NCBI GenBank assembly: GCA_945787805.1
Contig: CALZID010000008.1
Location: forward strand, 1-64,000
Reading direction: 5' to 3'
Length of the DNA: 64,000 bases
DNA from: an uncultured Clostridia bacterium
Lineage (GTDB): Bacteria; Bacillota; Clostridia; Oscillospirales; Acutalibacteraceae
Shown here: positions 26,004 through 35,677 of the stretch, piece by piece
Layout of the letters: the number at the start of each line of letters is the position of its first letter
Numbering within the stretch: the first letter of the stretch is position 1
The notes under the pieces: model-generated
What the model saw: only the letters and a program-made list of their open reading frames with translations
Database searches by the model: none
What the model was told of the DNA's origin: nothing
Program-made: the position numbers and the translations under genes

Positions 26004-26052
26004 AAGCGTTGCAAAATGGGTAACATTCCCAAAATGCAACGCTTAATTTTTT
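26004..26052. terminator. bidirectional terminator between convergent genes
   Basis: AAGCGTTGCA (26004-26013) pairs with TGCAACGCTT (26035-26044), with further GGG/CCC pairing inside, then AATTTTTTT. It serves the acyltransferase gene and probably the hydrogenase operon arriving from the other side. Confidence 0.85.
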
Positions 26053-26054
26053 TA

Positions 26055-27482
26055 TTAAAGAATACTTATGGCATCAATAATTGTTTTTTCAAATGCTTCT
26101 TTGCCGTATTTATCTACTTCTGCCTTGTTCTTCTCGCCGTGAGTCAAACATCCGGCGCCGCCGATACATCCGCCCACGCAAGCCATACCTTCGATAAAGT
26201 TGGCATCGATTTTACCCTTACTCTTTTTCAAAAGTGCAAGCTTACACTCCTGAATTCCGTCACAGGATATAGCTTTAAGCTCGAAGTCTTCTAATCCCTG
26301 TTCATTTAAACCTTCTTGAACAGCATCGGCAAGTCCGCCGCAACGGGCAAAAATTCTGCCGAAATAAGACGCATTATCCAGAACGCCTTCTTCCATTGTG
26401 GTTATGTCTAAATCCTTACTGTCAAAAAGTGCCTGTAATTCTTCAAAGGTCAAAACTGCGTCAATATACGGTTTAACGCTTTCTCTTTGAGCTTCCGCTT
26501 TCTTTGCGGTGCAAGGTCCTATAAACACAATTTTAGCATTGGGTGTGGTATCCTTGATATATTTTGCAATTGTAGCCATGGGAGATAAATTATGAGAAAT
26601 ATGCGGGATAAGGTCGGGGAAATTCTTTTCTACATAACTTACAAATGCGGGACAGCAAGAGCTCGTTAAAAATCCTTTTTCCGCAAGCTCTTTTGACTCG
26701 GCAGCCGCAACCATATCGGCACCCAGCGCTGCTTCAACAACGGTATGGAAACCGAGTGCTTTAATACCCGAAACAACCTGACCGAGTTTCGCATAAACGA
26801 ACTGGCTTGAAATAGACGGGGCTACAACCGCATAGATTTTATAATCTTTGCCCGCCTTGCTCTTTTTGATAAGGTCAATTACATTTAAGATATAGGATTT
26901 ATCGGTAATAGCGCCGAAAGGACACTGATAAACACAGGCGCCGCAAGAGATACATTTATTGTTATCAATATGCGCCGATTTATTGTCGTTCATTGAAATC
27001 GCTTTGATTTTACATGCATTTTCACAGGGACGAACACGGTTCACAATGGCGGTATAAGGACAAACCTTTGCACAAGCACCGCATTCCTTGCACTTTGACT
27101 TATCAATATGGGCAACATGGTTTAAGTCAAATGAAAGAGCGCCGAATTTACAAACATCTTCACATCTGTGAGCCAAGCAACCGCGGCAGGCATTTGTAAC
27201 TTCATAACCGCCGACGGGACATTCATCACAGGCAATTTCTAAAACTTCAATAGGGTTTGGATTTTCTTTATCTCCGCCCATTGCCATTTTTACACGCTCA
27301 TCAAGAATTGCACGCTCTTTATAAACACAGCATCGCATTGTAGGCTCATTGCCGGGTACAATCTTTTTTGAAATATCAAGTAAATTGTCATATAAAGTAT
27401 CGTTCCAAGCCTCTTTTGCAACTTCTCTTAAAACTTTATATTTTAAATACTGTACTTTTGTATCAAATTTACGCATTTTCAT
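26055..27482 (-). CDS. group B monomeric [FeFe]-hydrogenase
   Basis: A 475-residue iron-only hydrogenase, predicted to reduce protons with ferredoxin electrons (or the reverse). The N-terminal 190 residues hold many Cys in unusual groups (CDECPVGG, CRGCLAHRCEDVC, CKECGACAKVCP, CENAC, CISCGACVYQCP), enough for several [4Fe-4S] clusters. The H-cluster signatures are TSSCCPAF (Cys276, Cys277), GPCTAKKAEA (Cys324) and EGMACVGGCIGG (Cys435, Cys439); all metal-binding Cys are present, so it should be active. The short, NuoG-less N-terminus is typical of group B. GGAG precedes ATG 27482; last gene of the adhE operon, 11 bases after the phosphatase. Confidence 0.9.
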   Translation of the reverse strand: MKMRKFDTKVQYLKYKVLREVAKEAWNDTLYDNLLDISKKIVPGNEPTMRCCVYKERAILDERVKMAMGGDKENPNPIEVLEIACDECPVGGYEVTNACRGCLAHRCEDVCKFGALSFDLNHVAHIDKSKCKECGACAKVCPYTAIVNRVRPCENACKIKAISMNDNKSAHIDNNKCISCGACVYQCPFGAITDKSYILNVIDLIKKSKAGKDYKIYAVVAPSISSQFVYAKLGQVVSGIKALGFHTVVEAALGADMVAAAESKELAEKGFLTSSCCPAFVSYVEKNFPDLIPHISHNLSPMATIAKYIKDTTPNAKIVFIGPCTAKKAEAQRESVKPYIDAVLTFEELQALFDSKDLDITTMEEGVLDNASYFGRIFARCGGLADAVQEGLNEQGLEDFELKAISCDGIQECKLALLKKSKGKIDANFIEGMACVGGCIGGAGCLTHGEKNKAEVDKYGKEAFEKTIIDAISIL

Positions 27483-27493
27483 ATTGACTTCTC

Positions 27494-28666
27494 CTAAAAA
27501 TAGCTTACCTTTATACGCTTACCCATTTTTTTAAGACAGGCTGAAAGCTCTTCAACAAGGTTCATTTTGATGCTGAAATTTATGGGCAAATCGGGGTTTT
27601 GGTGAGCCGGGTTAATGGCTCTGCCCACATAGAAATTTATATCGGTTGCTTCTTCAAACAACAATCTGCTAATAAGAGAAGCACCGTCACGCTTTATGCT
27701 CCAATGCTCATAAAACTTGTTTTCTTCAAGATAATCCTTTGCATATTCAACCACCTTGTTGACGGTGATAACACCTTCTGTTACAAGGTCAACACCTTCA
27801 AGCTCTGCAATCGGGGGAATATCGGACTGTTCAAAATTCAGCGTGGGCCTTAGCGGTTTATTAAGATATTTTGCGGCGATTGAAGATGTTGTGCCGCCGC
27901 AAATAATGTGCTTGCCCTCTTTTGAGAAGAAAAGCGACATCATTCTCGGTCCGTCGTCTCTGTTAAAGGGTGGACCGAAGAGCAAATTCATAGGCTCCCG
28001 TTTGCGAATTTTTATAACACATGCCGTTGCATCGTCACCGGGTTTTTCGCCGTAAAGCTTATTGCACTCATCAACAAGCATTGTCGAGAGAGTTTTTGCG
28101 GTATAACCTGCGGGTGCAACCGTTTCAATGAAGCTGATTATATCTTCACGCTTCCAGCCGAAATTATATAACAAACCTATTCCCGCATGGGGACAACCGT
28201 CGCTCATAGCTACAAAAATATCGTTTTCCTGAAGTTGAATAACGCTTTTGTAAATCTTTTTTCCGTCGATATTCATTTCGGTTTTTGGATAATCGTAATT
28301 TACGCCGTCACGAATAAGGATAACCTGGGGATTATCATATTGAATAATCTCTGCTGTTTGATTGTTTATAAGGTGCATTATTGTGAATGTGGAATATGCC
28401 ACGCCGCGCACCGAACAAACGGGAAGTGTTGCGGCGATTGTTGAAACACATTCTTCAATGGGAAGTCCCTTTGACATCATTGTTGAAATGATTTTTGAAG
28501 TGAGTGTTGACAAAATGCTCGCTTTAACTCCGCTGCCTAATCCGTCGGCTAAAACAACCACCGTTGAATTCTCGTTTTCTTCTACAACATCTACATGGTC
28601 ACCGCAAAGCTGCTCGCCGTAATGATTTATACTTTTGTAACCGATATCTGCACATAAATCATTCAT
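27494..28666 (-). CDS. SpoIIE/PP2C-type protein phosphatase with extra C-terminal domain
   Basis: A 390-residue protein. Residues about 1-235 are a PP2C fold with the metal-binding aspartates in VLADGLGSGVKA, VAMSDGCPHAGIG and GDDATACVI, so it should dephosphorylate Ser/Thr proteins. Residues about 236-390 form a second domain (from NLLFGPPFNRDDGPRM onward) that I cannot name. ATG 28666 overlaps the end of the hydrogenase-sensor gene by eight bases and has AGGAG ten bases upstream. PP2C genes are known companions of group C [FeFe]-hydrogenases, and a signalling output role follows. The target is unknown. Confidence 0.88.
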   Translation of the reverse strand: MNDLCADIGYKSINHYGEQLCGDHVDVVEENENSTVVVLADGLGSGVKASILSTLTSKIISTMMSKGLPIEECVSTIAATLPVCSVRGVAYSTFTIMHLINNQTAEIIQYDNPQVILIRDGVNYDYPKTEMNIDGKKIYKSVIQLQENDIFVAMSDGCPHAGIGLLYNFGWKREDIISFIETVAPAGYTAKTLSTMLVDECNKLYGEKPGDDATACVIKIRKREPMNLLFGPPFNRDDGPRMMSLFFSKEGKHIICGGTTSSIAAKYLNKPLRPTLNFEQSDIPPIAELEGVDLVTEGVITVNKVVEYAKDYLEENKFYEHWSIKRDGASLISRLLFEEATDINFYVGRAINPAHQNPDLPINFSIKMNLVEELSACLKKMGKRIKVSYF

Positions 28667-30335
28667 CAGTAATTGACTCCTTAAGTTTGGCAAGCGCAAT
28701 CTTTGTTTCGGCAGCAGTTTCACCGAGAAGTGACGCAATCTCTTGAACAATTCGCATTTGCTTATCTACAACCTTGTCAGCCACTTCAATTGTCTGTCGG
28801 CTGATATCTTCTTTCTTTTCACGCTCTTTTTCTTCGTCGGTAACATCACGCATAATGCTGATTAAAAGATGAGAATCCTTGTCGTGAACAACCGTCTGTT
28901 CAATATAGCGCTTATACTCGGCAAGATAAACTCTTTCGTCACGGACATCTCTGCCCGAAGACATAACCTGCATAAATATGCTGGGGTCAAGAATTCTTAT
29001 AACCTGGTCGCCTAAAACATCGGAAGCCGAGCGGATATTCATAATTCTTCTTGCAGAATCGTTAATCTGCTGAACTTCCAGCTGCTCGTTGAGAACAATG
29101 AGTCCGTTGGGAGAATTATTGACGATTGTGTCCGAAAAACTTTCTGCTTTATCTTTAAGATATGGCAGACACATTGAAATTTCAGCCTTTCCCTGAATAA
29201 TTGCCGCCGCTTTTTCACGGCAGGTATTATAACCGCAAGAGCCGCAATTCAATTCGTGAGCAGGCTTAAATTTGCCCATTTGACGCAGTATATTATTGAT
29301 TTCAATTTCGGAAGGCTGAGTATTTCTCTGCTCAATATAACTAAATGTCTTTCTGAGCTCGACTGCTTTCGGCTGAGCGACCTGAAAATCTTTTTCACCG
29401 GCATAATTTGCGACTTCAATATAGTCTTTAATATTTGAGGAGTGGTGATATTTTTCGATAACAGGACCGCCCACACAGCTGCCCACACAGGCTGACATTT
29501 CAATAAAGCATTTATGGATTTTTCCTTTTTCAATATCTTTCAAAACAGCGATACAGTTTTCAACACCGTCTACCGTAACATAGGTAAATCCTTCAACTTC
29601 GCTCATTGTTTTTAGAATTCCTCCCGTTGTGGGGAAAAATCTTGCACGGCTGTGCTCATCACTGTCCTGAATATTTTCCGGTTCAATTTTTTCTTCTTTG
29701 AGCCATTCGGTAAGCTCTTCAAATGTCAAAACCGCATCGACAAAGCCTTCATAGTGTTCCGCTTCGTCTTTTTTTGCGACGCAAGGACCGACAAACACGG
29801 TTTTTGCATTGGGAATTCTCTTTTTGATATCTTGACAATGAGCCTGCATTGGTGACATTACATCTGCCAGATATTCGAGAACTGCGGGATGATGCTTTTG
29901 TATTAAAAGGTTGATTGAATGACAACAAGAAGAAATAACGATATCCCGTTCTTCTTCTTTTAACATTCTTTCGTATTCTGTTTTAACAATAGTTGCTCCG
30001 ATTGCGGTTTCTTCAACATCATAAAAGCCCAACTTTTTCAATGCTGTTCGCATTGCGTTTATTCCCACACCGTCATAGTTTGCGATAAATGACGGTGCAA
30101 GGCTTACAAACACCGGGTCACCGCTTTGAAGAAGCACCTTGACTTTTTCAACCTCATTTACTATTTCTTTTGCATTCTGCGGACATACAACAAAACACTG
30201 ACCGCATAAAATACACTCGTTGCCGATTATATGCGCCTGATTTCCCGAAAAGCGAATTGCTTTTACGGGACAGTGGCGGATACATTTATAGCAGTTTTTA
30301 CAGTTTGATTTTTTCAGCGTCAAACAATCAGACAT
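28659..30335 (-). CDS. group C [FeFe]-hydrogenase-like redox sensor with PAS domain
   Basis: A 558-residue putative sensory hydrogenase (HydS type). In order: two [4Fe-4S] motifs (CKNCYKCIRHCP, CILCGQCFVVCP, residues 12-51), the H-cluster domain with SSCCH (136-139), GPCVAKKDEA (Cys185) and EMSACVGSCVGG (Cys283, Cys287), an added Fe-S domain (CGSCGYNTC ... Cys389), a PAS domain (about 405-510) and a C-terminal coiled coil (about 515-550). The L1 motif has His in place of the Pro of catalytic enzymes, fitting a sensor. Followed by an overlapping PP2C phosphatase gene, so it likely reports H2 or redox state to that phosphatase. Confidence 0.87.
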   Translation of the reverse strand: MSDCLTLKKSNCKNCYKCIRHCPVKAIRFSGNQAHIIGNECILCGQCFVVCPQNAKEIVNEVEKVKVLLQSGDPVFVSLAPSFIANYDGVGINAMRTALKKLGFYDVEETAIGATIVKTEYERMLKEEERDIVISSCCHSINLLIQKHHPAVLEYLADVMSPMQAHCQDIKKRIPNAKTVFVGPCVAKKDEAEHYEGFVDAVLTFEELTEWLKEEKIEPENIQDSDEHSRARFFPTTGGILKTMSEVEGFTYVTVDGVENCIAVLKDIEKGKIHKCFIEMSACVGSCVGGPVIEKYHHSSNIKDYIEVANYAGEKDFQVAQPKAVELRKTFSYIEQRNTQPSEIEINNILRQMGKFKPAHELNCGSCGYNTCREKAAAIIQGKAEISMCLPYLKDKAESFSDTIVNNSPNGLIVLNEQLEVQQINDSARRIMNIRSASDVLGDQVIRILDPSIFMQVMSSGRDVRDERVYLAEYKRYIEQTVVHDKDSHLLISIMRDVTDEEKEREKKEDISRQTIEVADKVVDKQMRIVQEIASLLGETAAETKIALAKLKESITDE

Positions 30336-30356
30336 ATTCCCTGCTGCTCCCTTTCA

Positions 30357-30602
30357 CTAAATTTTGCTCAAAACATTCTCTTGAAAAAATTCTTTAAAGT
30401 TTTCTTTAGTAACACCCGTATGAACATCGTCATCAACCTGAATTGTCACACCGACACGATTACACCTGCCGATGCAAAAGCTGCCGACAAGTGTAATTTC
30501 GTCTTGTAAATGATTTTGTTCAACGGCTTTTTGAATAAGCTCAACTATTTCGGGTGAGCCTTTCAAGTGGCAAGAGCTGCCCACACAAACCTGAATTATC
30601 AT
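30357..30602 (-). CDS. thioredoxin-like [2Fe-2S] ferredoxin, copy 2
   Basis: An 81-residue small protein with four Cys in the thioredoxin-like ferredoxin pattern: CVGSSC near the N-terminus and FCIGRC at about residues 43-48. This is the fold of the NuoE C-terminal domain and would carry one [2Fe-2S] cluster. It is a tandem paralogue of the gene three bases upstream, but the middle differs (GRCNRVGVT against GKCQSGVCVT). It probably passes electrons to or from the hydrogenase proteins encoded downstream. Confidence 0.88.
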   Translation of the reverse strand: MIIQVCVGSSCHLKGSPEIVELIQKAVEQNHLQDEITLVGSFCIGRCNRVGVTIQVDDDVHTGVTKENFKEFFQENVLSKI

Positions 30603-30605
30603 ATT

Positions 30606-30845
30606 TTATACCTTTGCCAATACTTCTTTTTCAAAAAATTCTCTTACGGTTTCGGGAGTTACCGAATAAAACTCTCCGTCAACCGTGACGCAAACGCCCG
30701 ATTGACATTTGCCCATACAGAAAGTACCGCCAAGCTCAATTTCATCTTTAAGATTGTTTTCGGCAATCAGATGCTGAAGCTCCGATACAACACGGCGAGA
30801 GCCTTTAATATGGCATGAACTGCCGATACAAACAGTGATTTTCAT
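30606..30845 (-). CDS. thioredoxin-like [2Fe-2S] ferredoxin, copy 1
   Basis: A 79-residue protein with CIGSSC and FCMGKCQSGVC, giving four cluster cysteines plus one extra. The fold is the same as copy 2. AAGGAG precedes ATG 30845, and the gene lies 12 bases after the APH-like kinase gene and 3 before copy 2. Such small ferredoxins accompany [FeFe]-hydrogenase and HydABC-type systems as electron carriers or subunits. Confidence 0.88.
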   Translation of the reverse strand: MKITVCIGSSCHIKGSRRVVSELQHLIAENNLKDEIELGGTFCMGKCQSGVCVTVDGEFYSVTPETVREFFEKEVLAKV

Positions 30846-30857
30846 AATAATTACTCC

Positions 30858-31607
30858 TTATTCGTAATCTACAACATCAACCCAGGAAAGCAAGAATTGA
30901 CGCTCTTTTTCATTGCCTTTAACTGATTGAGATGCCGCAACAATGGGCATCCATTTTTGAACATACTGTTTTGCAGTATTGCTCTTTTTACAGAACAAAT
31001 CCAAATAACGATTAGCACCGTCAATGTCGCCGTTGAGCCAGAATAAAAGATATGTTCTTGCCACATCGGCTGAAGCATTACCCTGTGTCGCGTGTGACCA
31101 GTCAATTATATAAGGTGTACCGTCAGCAGTTAAGATGACATTTGAAAGGTTGAAATCTCCGTGACAGAGTTTTTTGTGCTTCGGCATACCCTCAAGTCTT
31201 GTGTGCAAATCATAACGGGTTGTAGCATCAAGCTCAGAAATAGAAATTTTGCGATTCATTTTATCTTTCAGTTTAGTTAAAAGTTCACAGGTTTTAGACT
31301 GCACTTCAATTTGGATATCAACGAACAATTCTAAATATTCGTCTTTTTTATCGGGATTTTCTTCAATAAGACGGTCGAGAGTTTTACCCTCAATATATTC
31401 CGAAACAATTGCCCATTTTCCGTCAATCATAGTAACTTCTTTGATTTTTGGGATATTAAGGCCTGTTTCTTCTACACGGGACTGATTGAGAGCCTCGTTG
31501 AGAATATCTGACTTTGAATAACCTTCGTCAAATACTTTAATACAATTTTCGCCGTCACGATAAACGGTTTTTCCTGTTCTTACTGCAATCATTCTGTCAA
31601 GTTTCAT
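30858..31607 (-). CDS. APH-family phosphotransferase (aminoglycoside phosphotransferase-like kinase)
   Basis: A 249-residue small kinase fold. Residues about 145-158 read LCHGDFNLSNVIL, the catalytic loop with Asp and Asn, and IIDWSHA at about 170 gives the metal-binding Asp. The N-terminal lobe is short, and it resembles the TIGR02172 group. The substrate is unknown; resistance is unlikely given its place between adhE and ferredoxin genes, 17 bases after adhE and 12 before the ferredoxin. GGGGAGG precedes ATG 31607. Whether it acts on a small molecule or a protein opposed by the PP2C phosphatase is open. Confidence 0.82.
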   Translation of the reverse strand: MKLDRMIAVRTGKTVYRDGENCIKVFDEGYSKSDILNEALNQSRVEETGLNIPKIKEVTMIDGKWAIVSEYIEGKTLDRLIEENPDKKDEYLELFVDIQIEVQSKTCELLTKLKDKMNRKISISELDATTRYDLHTRLEGMPKHKKLCHGDFNLSNVILTADGTPYIIDWSHATQGNASADVARTYLLFWLNGDIDGANRYLDLFCKKSNTAKQYVQKWMPIVAASQSVKGNEKERQFLLSWVDVVDYE

Positions 31608-31624
31608 TACTGTTTCCTCCCCTA

Positions 31625-34321
31625 TTATGCTTTTTTGCCCTTGCGATAATTGGCTTTCACGGAATCTGTTTTTGCAGTCTTTGCGAAATCGGCAGCCTTC
31701 GGCATTTTTACTTCTTCAAAATGCTTGCCGTAATAAGCATTGAGATACATCTGTTTAATTTCGCTCATAAGAGGATAACGGGGGTTTGCGCCTGTACATT
31801 GGTCGTCAAATGCCTGTTCAACCATATCGTCAAGACGGTCAAGGAAATCTTTTTCGTCAATGCCATAGTCTTTTATTGTATCTTTAATGCCAACCCTTGC
31901 TTTAAGCTCGTTGATTTTAGCAATAAGATTTTCTACACTTTCGGCATCGTTTTTACCTGCACAGCCAAGGCACTCGGCAATTTCAGCATAGCGAGCCATT
32001 GTGTGTGGGTGGTCATATTGTGAGAATGTACCCATTTTTACAGGAGTTTCACTTGCATTGAAACGGATAACCTCTTCAATCATAAGCGCATTGGCAACAC
32101 CGTGCGGAAGATGGTGGAAAGCGCCCAACTTATGAGCCATTGAGTGACAAACACCTAAGAAAGCATTAGCGAATGCCATGCCTGCCATTGTAGCGGCATT
32201 TGCCATTTTTTCTCTTGCTTCAATATCTGTTTGACCGTTGTCATAAGCTCTCGGCAAATATTCAAAAATCACTTTCAATGCACGAAGAGCCAAGCCGTCA
32301 GTATAATCGGTAGCAAGCATTGCGGCATAAGCTTCAACTGCGTGAGTTACTGCGTCAATACCCGATGCGGCAGTTAAGCCTTTCGGTGCGGACATATGGA
32401 AATCCGTATCAACAATTGCCATATTGGGAAGAAGCTCATAATCGGCAAGCGGATATTTAACGCCGGTATTTTCGTCAGTGATAACTGCGAAAGGTGTAAC
32501 CTCTGAGCCTGTTCCTGCCGAAGTCGGAACTGCGATGAAATATGCTTTTTCGCCCATTTTCGGGAATGTATATACACGCTTACGGATATCAATAAATCTC
32601 ATTGCCATATCCATAAAGTCAGCGTCCGGATGTTCATAGAGAACCCACATAATCTTTGCGGCATCCATAGCACTGCCGCCACCGAGAGCGATGATTGTGT
32701 CCGGCTTGAAGGCTGCCATCTGTGCGGCGCCGTCTTTTGCATTTTTAAGCGTCGGGTCCGGCTGAACATCAAAGAATGTTGTGTGAGCAATACCCATTTC
32801 GTCTAATTTATCGGTAATCGGCTTTGTGTAGCCGTTTTCATAAAGGAATGTATCTGTTACGATAAATGCTTTCTTTGAACCGCGAACAGTACGAAGCTCA
32901 TCGAGAGCAACAGGCAAGCAGCCTTTCTTGATATATACCTTTTCAGGTGCACGGAACCAAAGCATATTTTCCCTTCTTTCAGCAACAGTTTTGATATTTA
33001 AAAGATGCTTAACGCCAACATTTTCCGATACGGAGTTGCCGCCCCATGAGCCGCAACCGAGTGTGAGCGACGGAGCAAGCTTGAAATTGTAAAGGTCACC
33101 GATACCGCCGTGTGAAGAGGGGGTATTAACGAGAATACGGCAAGTCTTCATACGAGCGCTGAATTCGGCAAGCTTTTCTTTTTCCGTAACTTCGTTGAGA
33201 TATACAGAAGAAGTATGACCGTAACCGCCGTCGGCAACCAATACTTCGGCTTTTTGAAGAGCATCTTCAAAACTCTTTGCTTTATACATTGCAAGAACGG
33301 GAGAAAGCTTTTCGTGAGCAAATTCTTCGCTGAGTTCAACACTTTCAACTTCACCGATAAGAATTTTTGTTCCCTCAGGTACTTTAACACCTGACAGCTC
33401 GGCAATTCTAACTGCTTTCTGTCCGACAATTTTAGCATTTAATGCGCCGTTTATAATAATTGTTTTTCTGACTTTTTCTGTTTCGTCTGCATTTAAGAAA
33501 TAGCAGCCGCGGTTTGCAAATTCTTCTTTAACCGCATCATAAATACTTTCAAGCACGATTACCGACTGCTCGGAAGCACAAATCATACCGTTATCAAATG
33601 TTTTTGAGTGAATGATTGAGTTGACCGCAAGAAGAATATCAGCAGTATCGTCAATAATTGCGGGAGTATTGCCCGCACCGACGCCCAATGCAGGTTTACC
33701 GCTTGAATATGCAGCCTTAACCATTCCGGGACCGCCGGTTGCTAAGATGATGTCGGCTTCTTTCATTACGAAGTTTGTCATATCCAAAGACGGAACATCA
33801 ATCCAGTCGATAATATCTTCGGGAGCGCCCGCTTCCACTGCTGCTTCAAGCACTAATTTTGCAGCGGCGATTGTGCTGTTCTTTGCCCGTGGGTGTGGGC
33901 TGATGATAATAGCATTACGGGTTTTAAGAGCAAGCAAACACTTAAAGATTGCGGTAGATGTAGGATTTGTTGTAGGAATAACTGCGGCAATAACACCGAT
34001 GGGCTCAGCGATTTTAGTAATACCGAAAGCCTTGTCTTCTTCAATAACGCCGCAGGTTTTTGTGTCTTTATATGCATTGTATATGTATTCGGCGGCATAG
34101 TTGTTTTTGATAACCTTGTCTTCAACAACACCCATTCCTGTTTCTTCAACCGCCATTTTTGCAAGTGGAATTCTTGCTTTATTAGCAGCTGATGCAGCAG
34201 CCAAGAAAATCTTGTCTACCTGTTCCTGTGTGTAGGTCGCAAATTTTTTCTGAGCCGCTTTGACACGCTCAAAGCCTTCTTCTAAGCTCTCTACACTGTC
34301 AATGATTTTATACTCTTTCAT
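31625..34321 (-). CDS. adhE: bifunctional acetaldehyde-CoA / alcohol dehydrogenase
   Basis: Makes ethanol from acetyl-CoA with two NADH. At 898 residues it is full length. The N-terminal aldehyde dehydrogenase half (about 1-440) has the active-site Cys in NGMICASEQSVIV; the C-terminal Fe-alcohol dehydrogenase half (about 465-870) has GGGSAMDAAKIMW, TSAGTGSEVTPFAVITD and the iron-ligand region SMAHKLGAFHHLPHG. GGGAGG precedes ATG 34321. It is the first gene of a seven-gene run ending with a hydrogenase. A Rex-like operator at 34349 fits NADH-dependent repression. Confidence 0.96.
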   Translation of the reverse strand: MKEYKIIDSVESLEEGFERVKAAQKKFATYTQEQVDKIFLAAASAANKARIPLAKMAVEETGMGVVEDKVIKNNYAAEYIYNAYKDTKTCGVIEEDKAFGITKIAEPIGVIAAVIPTTNPTSTAIFKCLLALKTRNAIIISPHPRAKNSTIAAAKLVLEAAVEAGAPEDIIDWIDVPSLDMTNFVMKEADIILATGGPGMVKAAYSSGKPALGVGAGNTPAIIDDTADILLAVNSIIHSKTFDNGMICASEQSVIVLESIYDAVKEEFANRGCYFLNADETEKVRKTIIINGALNAKIVGQKAVRIAELSGVKVPEGTKILIGEVESVELSEEFAHEKLSPVLAMYKAKSFEDALQKAEVLVADGGYGHTSSVYLNEVTEKEKLAEFSARMKTCRILVNTPSSHGGIGDLYNFKLAPSLTLGCGSWGGNSVSENVGVKHLLNIKTVAERRENMLWFRAPEKVYIKKGCLPVALDELRTVRGSKKAFIVTDTFLYENGYTKPITDKLDEMGIAHTTFFDVQPDPTLKNAKDGAAQMAAFKPDTIIALGGGSAMDAAKIMWVLYEHPDADFMDMAMRFIDIRKRVYTFPKMGEKAYFIAVPTSAGTGSEVTPFAVITDENTGVKYPLADYELLPNMAIVDTDFHMSAPKGLTAASGIDAVTHAVEAYAAMLATDYTDGLALRALKVIFEYLPRAYDNGQTDIEAREKMANAATMAGMAFANAFLGVCHSMAHKLGAFHHLPHGVANALMIEEVIRFNASETPVKMGTFSQYDHPHTMARYAEIAECLGCAGKNDAESVENLIAKINELKARVGIKDTIKDYGIDEKDFLDRLDDMVEQAFDDQCTGANPRYPLMSEIKQMYLNAYYGKHFEEVKMPKAADFAKTAKTDSVKANYRKGKKA

Positions 34322-34348
34322 TTATATGTTCCTCCCTGTCGTTTGGCT

Positions 34349-34366
34349 TTGTTAATATTTTATCAA
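34349..34366. promoter_or_regulatory. Rex-like operator before adhE
   Basis: TTGTTAATATTTTATCAA matches the Rex redox-repressor consensus TTGTTAA-N4-TTAACAA with a single mismatch (TTATCAA in the right half). It is 28 bases upstream of the adhE start. Rex control of adhE is well known in Clostridia; binding here is inference. Confidence 0.55.
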
Positions 34367-34390
34367 ACTTTTTATCCGGGGGGAATTGCT

Positions 34391-34431
34391 ATTTTGATAT
34401 AACCATATTGTAATTAAAGATATATCAAAAT
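34391..34431. promoter_or_regulatory. inverted repeat between lysR and adhE (possible LysR operator)
   Basis: ATTTTGATATA (34391-34401) and TATATCAAAAT (34421-34431) are perfect 11-bp arms 19 bases apart, with no T-run, so not a terminator. A related half site, TATATCAAA, occurs at 35414-35422 before the lysR gene. Confidence 0.45.
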
Positions 34432-34451: not shown

Positions 34452-35375
34452 TTACCCAATATATTTTCGCTTTGAGTCGCAAAGCTCCGTAATAAAAGCT
34501 CTGTCAAGGTCGGAGAGCTTATATGTACTTTTATATATGAGCACATCTTTATAAAGCTTTGTATTATCAGCACAGATTTTTTGAACAAGTCCGAAACGGT
34601 CAAGAGTTTCTTGCGGCATTGGGGATACCCACATAAAAGTATCGTGGTTTTCTTGCAAAATTTCATATTGACTTGCTCTTTCAAAAACAAAAATTCGTCT
34701 GTCAATATTTTCAGGAAGCTCTTCTTTTTTCACTGCCGCCATAGGAAGTGAAGGAACATAGGGGTCCGCATGAGCAATTTCAATATACGGCGGTAAATCG
34801 TCAAAGGTGATATCTGTTTTATCGGCAAGGGGATGATGCTTTGACATAATAATTCTATATGAAAACTCGGTTATCATTTCATAGTTAAGACCTTTTTCAT
34901 CAAGCATCTGCTTAAAATAGTAATCTTTATTGGCGGCATATCTGATAATGCCTAAATGATAATCGGATTCAAGAATGTTTTTAATGGCTCTCAATGCGTT
35001 GGTTTCTTTATAAAACAATTCGGCGGGGGTTTTATCTATCTGCTTTGAAAATTTTGCAAAAGCGTGGGAAATATAGCTTGTTCTCGGAACAGATATAGAG
35101 AATTCTTGCTTTTTAGCTGCCCCTGTTTTGTAAAGATTTTCAATTTCGTCAATCTGCTTTAAAACATTGTTTGCATAGTTTAAAAACTCTTGACCTTGTG
35201 CGGTTGCCACCATTCCTTTTGCCGAACGCTCGAAGACGGTTATACCCAGTGACGCCTCAAGCTCTTTAATTGCACGGCTTAAATTAGGCTGACCGACGCA
35301 CAGATTTTCTGCCGCCTTATTCAAAGAACCTACTTTTGAAATTTCAATAGCATATTTCAGATGCATTAAGTTCAT
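34452..35375 (-). CDS. LysR-family transcriptional regulator
   Basis: A 307-residue LTTR: winged helix-turn-helix at residues about 1-60 (MNLMHLKYAIEISKVGSLNKAAENLCVGQPNLSRAIKELE) and a periplasmic-binding-protein-like effector domain (about 90-300). AAGGTGG precedes ATG 35375. It is directly upstream of, and co-directional with, adhE, 130 bases apart, with an inverted repeat in that gap that could be its operator. The effector is unknown. Confidence 0.9.
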   Translation of the reverse strand: MNLMHLKYAIEISKVGSLNKAAENLCVGQPNLSRAIKELEASLGITVFERSAKGMVATAQGQEFLNYANNVLKQIDEIENLYKTGAAKKQEFSISVPRTSYISHAFAKFSKQIDKTPAELFYKETNALRAIKNILESDYHLGIIRYAANKDYYFKQMLDEKGLNYEMITEFSYRIIMSKHHPLADKTDITFDDLPPYIEIAHADPYVPSLPMAAVKKEELPENIDRRIFVFERASQYEILQENHDTFMWVSPMPQETLDRFGLVQKICADNTKLYKDVLIYKSTYKLSDLDRAFITELCDSKRKYIG

Positions 35376-35561: not shown

Positions 35562-35562
35562 C

Positions 35563-35600
35563 AAACAAAAATCCGTCCACTTTCGTGAACGGATTTTCGT
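35563..35600 (-). terminator. terminator of tRNA-fMet
   Basis: On the minus strand AAAATCCGT pairs with ACGGATTTTT around the CACGAAAGTGG loop region, with the T-run continuing into TTTG. Confidence 0.8.
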
Positions 35601-35601
35601 T

Positions 35602-35677
<76 letters not shown>

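Follow-up and report, generated by a model that had tools for sequence, protein, structure and literature searches.

In Ruminococcus albus 7, a putative eight-gene cluster combines a ferredoxin-only hydrogenase, a bifunctional alcohol/aldehyde dehydrogenase, a group C sensory hydrogenase and a phosphatase; in a low-H2 (H2-consuming) co-culture transcripts of this cluster were down 111-fold and ethanol went from 8.7 to 0.3 mM, and H2 sensing with a feedback loop was proposed (PMC6776011, in excerpt). Deletion of hfsB raised ethanol in Thermoanaerobacterium saccharolyticum and four further thermophiles, deletion of the whole hfs operon did not raise it, and adhE and rex expression rose together with ethanol (PMC5707799, in excerpt). 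Here we describe a run of seven minus-strand genes, led by adhE and ending with a hydrogenase gene, in a stretch of 64,000 nucleotides (nt) from an uncultured Clostridia bacterium (contig CALZID010000008.1, assembly GCA_945787805.1), which is called the window throughout and to whose positions the coordinates of the unit refer. The unit is real, conserved and functionally coherent, and in essence it has already been described for R. albus. We put at roughly three in four the probability that it is an R. albus-type unit of the arrangement (rex)-adhE-kinase-fd-fd-hydS-PP2C-hydrogenase, with a promoter under Rex and LysR control and with H2-dependent switching between ethanol and acetate.

The elements of the unit, identified from open reading frames (ORFs), their translations and family models, are as follows, from upstream to downstream (aa, amino acids).

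34452..35375, minus strand: LysR-type transcriptional regulator (HTH_1, 57.7 bits), 130 nt upstream of adhE
34367..34428, minus strand: conserved promoter segment TATATC...TTATATC...AATTCCC (leave-one-out profile z 4.1)
34349..34366, minus strand: predicted Rex operator TTGATAAAATATTAACAA, one mismatch from the consensus and 27 nt upstream of the adhE ATG
31625..34321, minus strand: adhE, bifunctional acetaldehyde/alcohol dehydrogenase, 898 aa (NCBIfam PRK13805, 1401 bits, cut-off 951)
30858..31607, minus strand: APH/RIO-like kinase, 249 aa (APH PF01636, 44.8 bits; RIO1, 33.3 bits)
30606..30845, minus strand: fd1, thioredoxin-like 2Fe-2S ferredoxin, 79 aa (2Fe-2S_thioredx PF01257, 34.2 bits)
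30357..30602, minus strand: fd2, thioredoxin-like 2Fe-2S ferredoxin, 81 aa (PF01257, 38.4 bits)
28659..30335, minus strand: hydS, hydrogenase-like sensor, 558 aa (two Fer4, H-cluster domain Fe_hyd_lg_C, FeS PF04060, PAS)
27494..28666, minus strand: SpoIIE/PP2C-type phosphatase, 390 aa (PF07228, 52 bits), with a C-terminal domain of about 165 aa without family; the start was taken as an ATG, the listed ORF beginning farther upstream at a TTG
26055..27482, minus strand: hydB, monomeric [FeFe]-hydrogenase of group-B type, 475 aa (TIGR04105 FeFe_hydrog_B1, 571.6 bits, cut-off 450)
26004..26044, minus strand: terminator-like hairpin after hydB (-22.7 kcal/mol, z -5.6)

By description, the run resembles the R. 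albus 7 hydA2-hydS-adhE cluster, in which the dehydrogenase, the group C hydrogenase with its PAS domain, the phosphatase and the ferredoxin-only hydrogenase are likewise clustered; in the window, adhE, the sensory hydrogenase, the phosphatase and the monomeric hydrogenase lie in one same-strand run. Both genomes encode a bifurcating hydrogenase elsewhere, and because Rex and a HydABC-type operon are present, the genome of the window matches R. albus in its reported set of hydrogenases; for R. albus, H2 sensing has been proposed. Zheng and colleagues reportedly identified rex in 2014 as the eighth gene of the R. albus cluster, which is consistent with the relatives seen here. A rex gene inside the unit, a trait of R. 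albus-type clusters that may not be defining, was not found in the window. R. albus 7 has eight genes whereas the run described here has seven, with rex elsewhere, and the R. albus enzyme is called group A1 whereas the hydB product passes the NCBIfam B1 model, the two being compared by description (PMC6776011, in excerpt). With the hfsABCD operon of Thermoanaerobacterium the unit shares a PAS hydrogenase (HfsB), a serine-phosphatase-like protein (HfsC) and a ferredoxin-linked hydrogenase (HfsD) (PMC5707799 and PMC11837493, both in excerpt); there, adhE is described beside Tsac_0415, outside the hfs operon, and the excerpts mention no adjacent kinase. In the open literature we found no paper treating adhE, Rex, LysR, hydrogenase, Ruminococcus and operon together.

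The initial annotation had read the seven genes as a single operon with gaps of 3-21 bases or overlap, no terminators between the genes and a Rex-like operator in front of adhE. The ORF coordinates gave gaps of 17 nt (adhE-kinase), 12 nt (kinase-fd1), 3 nt (fd1-fd2), 21 nt (fd2-hydS), -8 nt (hydS-PP2C) and 11 nt (PP2C-hydB), a scan of 13 kb gave no terminator-like match at the six junctions, and the box preceding adhE was indeed found, so that all these points held. The reading as one operon and the predicted Rex site are well supported by the sequence together with the synteny in relatives, and the seven genes are presumably co-transcribed. Terminator-like matches in the scanned 13 kb numbered 14 versus 12.4 +/- 3.2 in shuffles, showing no excess, and a hairpin with a T-rich tail is present 3' of hydB, although the terminator pattern scan did not list it. 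Promoter-like matches on both strands numbered 48 versus 35.6 +/- 5.7 in shuffles, and because they exceed the shuffles there may be internal promoters in the run.

Synteny was analysed in 80 named loci, the best 80 of 577 from a scan of genome contigs, mostly metagenome-assembled genomes from herbivore gut. Both adhE and the kinase gene preceded hydS in 29 of the 48 loci whose sequence reached 4.1 kb or more beyond hydS on the upstream side, as had been expected if adhE and the hydrogenase genes belong together in relatives, and the kinase was present in every one of the adhE-bearing loci with this much upstream sequence (29/29). At least one of the two ferredoxins was found in 71/71 scorable loci, PP2C in 68/69 and hydB in 56/58. 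The overlap of hydS and PP2C was exactly 8 nt in 87/94 loci, and because it recurs in this way the two genes are probably translationally coupled. Gaps of at most 60 nt separated adhE from the kinase gene in 39/39 loci, the kinase gene from fd1 in 43/55 and PP2C from hydB in 67/75. The recurrent adhE-kinase gap and the 8-nt hydS-PP2C overlap are beyond chance.

Among 147 genomes (that of the window and relatives), 56 carried hydS, 59 the kinase and 40 both, leaving 19 with the kinase without hydS. Loci were examined for 17 of these 19 genomes (not G117 and G133), plus loci in which the kinase stands apart from hydS. Of 36 kinase loci, 27 had no hydS within 1.6 kb downstream, and adhE adjoined the kinase gene in 20 of the 27; when four loci ending before 1.6 kb were dropped, adhE was beside the kinase gene in 18 of 23, following it in three (L172, L173 and L175), and was missing in five (L152, L169, L174, L180 and L181). 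One of these five, L169 (G041:C10), has a variant run rex-kinase-hydB, with no adhE or hydS within 12 kb. In L164 (G135) and L165 (G094), adhE, the kinase gene and fd1 follow each other without hydS, so that a small ferredoxin can accompany adhE and the kinase. Because of the gap and kinase-locus counts, the unit can be described as the union of a (rex)-adhE-kinase and a fd-fd-hydS-PP2C-hydB module. Judging from gene neighbourhoods, the kinase looks to go with AdhE rather than with HydS. According to PMC5707799 (in excerpt), Zheng et al. envisaged a signal passing from HydS to the kinase next to it; contrary to that proposal, the genomic pattern ties the kinase to AdhE. A role as dedicated antagonist of the phosphatase was also considered and rejected, because the kinase tracks adhE. 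Residues H149, G150, D151, N156, D169 and W170, of the catalytic HGD....N and DW motifs, were invariant in 25 kinase sequences. The protein matched no Hanks-type (Pkinase) model, Pfam giving only APH, RIO1 and one sub-threshold model, and its matches in the Protein Data Bank (PDB) were weak (choline kinase, E 0.0016; StkP, E 0.046).

For Rex, the consensus TTGTTAA-N4-TTAACAA was used. Two sites of the 1.84-Mb genome come within one mismatch of it, and TTGATAAAATATTAACAA is one of them; the other, at L116:1501-1518, lies 57 nt before an ORF resembling by eye a membrane proton-pumping pyrophosphatase. In a survey of 60 leaders of rex- or adhE-led units, with duplicates kept (L149 is identical to L180; L051 and L052 are almost the same), 43 contained a box with two mismatches or fewer and 28 a box with at most one, compared with 0.67% and 0.01% in single-base shuffles. 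Of the 29 named leaders scored, 11 had rex immediately preceding adhE (10/27 by a cruder rule). A single Rex match (295.2 bits, cut-off 233) was obtained in the genome of the window, on another contig (C1) and outside the unit, so that this genome has both a Rex protein and a predicted Rex box at the adhE promoter. This rex gene (L184:2647-3288) directly follows ORFs resembling by eye aconitase and isocitrate dehydrogenase, and many relatives have rex with adhE.

A LysR gene with at least 55% identity was found upstream of adhE in 18 of the 21 named adhE loci with at least 6.5 kb upstream of hydS. Across the 147 genomes, 26 had both LysR and the kinase, 4 only LysR, 33 only the kinase and 84 neither, kinship being ignored in these counts. 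Where LysR is present, the 62 nt that immediately precede the Rex box are conserved, in fixed register with it. For the test of this segment, the 60 leaders were reduced to the 40 that had sufficient sequence upstream and a box of three mismatches or fewer, and to 32 after removal of near-duplicates; LysR-bearing leaders in which no Rex box was usable, for example L035, L044 and L104, fell outside the test. The segment reached z>=3.4 in 13 of the 14 leaders with an adjacent LysR (4.1 in the window; the exception was L162, with 2.5), and among the 18 leaders without one, four had z>5 (L049, L051, L113 and L097) and the other 14 z<=3.3. Four leaders without LysR (L149, L172, L173 and L175) showed by eye a plain TTGACA/TATAAT promoter. 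The segment at 34367-34428 is a candidate LysR binding site, and LysR would act as activator and Rex as repressor, both on the adhE promoter. The LysR regulator is part of the ethanol/hydrogenase unit, which adds to the initial annotation. Upstream of the LysR gene lies a tRNA-Met(cat) gene (35562-35677, minus strand), followed by a strong terminator-like hairpin.

HydS has the composition of group C hydrogenases, an H-cluster domain (PF02906) with a C-terminal PAS domain (PF00989), and HydB falls into the monomeric group B by passing TIGR04105; the cysteine motifs of both looked intact by eye. By eye, the second-sphere residues of HydS are of the sensor type of TmHydS, the sensory [FeFe]-hydrogenase of Thermotoga maritima: a Gly precedes the L2 Cys, and Ser takes the place of the L3 Met. 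HydS differs in retaining Cys for proton transfer, a feature reported for no more than 17% of sensory sequences (PMC10055695, in excerpt). The sensory role of such hydrogenases has been termed putative (PMC8924675, in excerpt). The adjacent protein is a SpoIIE/PP2C phosphatase by its PF07228 domain, and D23, D41, D156, D211 and D212 were invariant in 25 sequences. These residues are presumably the acidic metal ligands. The last 165 or so residues of the phosphatase had 30 invariant columns in 15 sequences, of which the other 14 were 36-89% identical to the window; in five distant loci the identity to the window was 35-42% for this tail versus 40-49% for the phosphatase domain, the tail thus being no higher. 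Pfam gave no family for the C-terminal domain (best E 0.12), and a search of the PDB gave phosphoheptose isomerase at E 0.009, a weak hint.

Four proteins with a hydrogenase domain are encoded in this genome, which is 98.4% complete in 23 contigs. The HydA of the HydABC-type operon passes the NCBIfam A6 model, and its closest PDB entry is HydA1 of 7q4v, which we take to be the Acetobacterium woodii protein. Its TSCSPGW motif was considered as a sign of a dead enzyme and rejected, since the solved HydA1 (7q4v) has the same letters. The fourth protein, of 429 aa, has an FeS domain and no PAS match; its gene shares the run L183:2666-5780 (G000:C10) with genes for a PHP-domain protein, two proteins carrying DRTGG domains and a small ATPase like those of histidine kinases, and this run is a second, different signalling-type hydrogenase cluster.

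In the mechanism that we propose, a single promoter would precede adhE, with the Rex box close to where transcription presumably starts, the putative LysR site being just upstream. When H2 accumulates, HydABC would stop oxidising NADH, NADH would rise, Rex would be released, probably with the aid of LysR, and the operon would be expressed; AdhE would then remove NADH as ethanol and the monomeric hydrogenase would take ferredoxin electrons. With H2 being scavenged, the operon would be off, in line with the known response of the R. albus unit to low-H2 co-culture, and HydABC would carry the flux to acetate. HydS, presumably coupled in translation to PP2C, would read H2 or the redox state through its H-cluster and PAS domain and set the phosphatase activity on a presumed target, and the kinase, acting on a presumed substrate, would be the partner of AdhE rather than of HydS.

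Several observations weigh against this proposal, and some of them lend themselves to other explanations. The absence of adhE from 19 of the 48 named hydS loci with enough upstream sequence, the pairing of adhE with the kinase gene in most kinase loci without an adjacent hydS, and the looser kinase-fd1 junction as compared with adhE-kinase would fit two modules that share a promoter only, (rex)-adhE-kinase serving NADH and fd-fd-hydS-PP2C-hydB being self-contained, with sensor and phosphatase regulating the hydrogenase alone, no signal passing from HydS to ethanol formation, and Rex alone providing the coupling. This is a genuine though lesser possibility, since the kinase stays with hydS in four loci that have no adhE (L072, L080, L091 and L112), and in T. 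saccharolyticum, where adhE lies beside Tsac_0415, deletions in hfs altered adhE expression and NADH-linked alcohol dehydrogenase activity (PMC5707799, in excerpt). The effect of hfsB loss in T. thermosaccharolyticum has moreover been attributed to hydrogen cycling and not to signalling (PMC11837493, in excerpt). With up to two mismatches allowed, the Rex pattern was not enriched, with 40 sites genome-wide versus 55 for the reversed control and 2 in the window versus 1.58 expected; 17 of the 60 leaders had no such box, among them eight led by rex (L035, L036, L044, L088, L104, L142, L144 and L151). The evidence on LysR compares related genomes, so that shared descent inflates its signal. As the LysR-bearing leaders are interrelated and the LysR site is predicted from sequence, Rex might regulate the unit alone, the LysR gene being an unrelated neighbour and the promoter segment a product of common ancestry. 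We think this rather doubtful, because in the six scored leaders of L131-L137, from the same genus and all without LysR, the segment scored z<=1.7, and because the leaders with the segment and without an adjacent LysR have LysR elsewhere on the locus (L049, L051 and L113) or come from a contig with about 1 kb of sequence before adhE (L097).

The maturases also count against the proposed mechanism. HydG was not found at E 0.001, and HydE and HydF were not found above cut-off, in this nearly complete genome, a weak HydE match being an ORF that resembles by eye a HemW-type radical SAM protein; HydS, HydB and HydABC may therefore not obtain their H-cluster in the presumed manner. Among the 39 hydS-bearing genomes at least 95% complete, that of the window included, HydG (E<=1e-80) was found in 19 and HydF (E<=1e-60) in 22, and 17 had neither; HydG and hydS were not associated across the 147 genomes (Fisher p 0.39). 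The unit might therefore respond to redox state only, HydS and HydB lacking a complete H-cluster and HydS sensing the redox state through Fe-S and PAS instead of sensing H2. This is unlikely in view of the intact-looking cysteine motifs and the retention of a HydABC-type operon whose HydA is close to 7q4v, which would make little sense if no H-cluster were synthesised. The genes may also just be missing from the bin; HydG was over the cut-off in 31 of 49 further hydS-bearing genomes (of unstated completeness, found through 50 of the 80 named loci and possibly overlapping with the set of relatives). The hydEFG neighbourhoods of three relatives differed by eye, and the ORFs flanking hydEFG in them had no match in the examined parts of the genome of the window. 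Either binning frequently loses these genes, or maturation proceeds in another way, or no H-cluster is formed. Very unlikely, in our opinion, is the further idea that a group of gut Clostridia, with this species among them, would keep intact HydABC, HydS and HydB under Rex and LysR without HydE, HydF and HydG, making the H-cluster by an unknown route or using HydS as an Fe-S/PAS redox switch.

The operon, the Rex site and the synteny of the initial annotation stood, and it had missed the LysR gene, the promoter segment, the split between adhE-kinase and sensor modules, and a check for maturases. The link between sensor, phosphatase and adhE, which it had offered as a clear hypothesis, was already in print for R. 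albus 7 (PMC6776011 and PMC5707799, both in excerpt). The present analysis adds the division into modules, the putative LysR/Rex promoter and the puzzle of the maturases, which, if the gap is real, brings into question how these hydrogenases work at all. The H2-responsive ethanol cluster of R. albus is a recurrent and modular unit of gut Clostridia, and the LysR regulator, the kinase tied to AdhE and the C-terminal domain of unknown family in the phosphatase are indicated as the parts to study.

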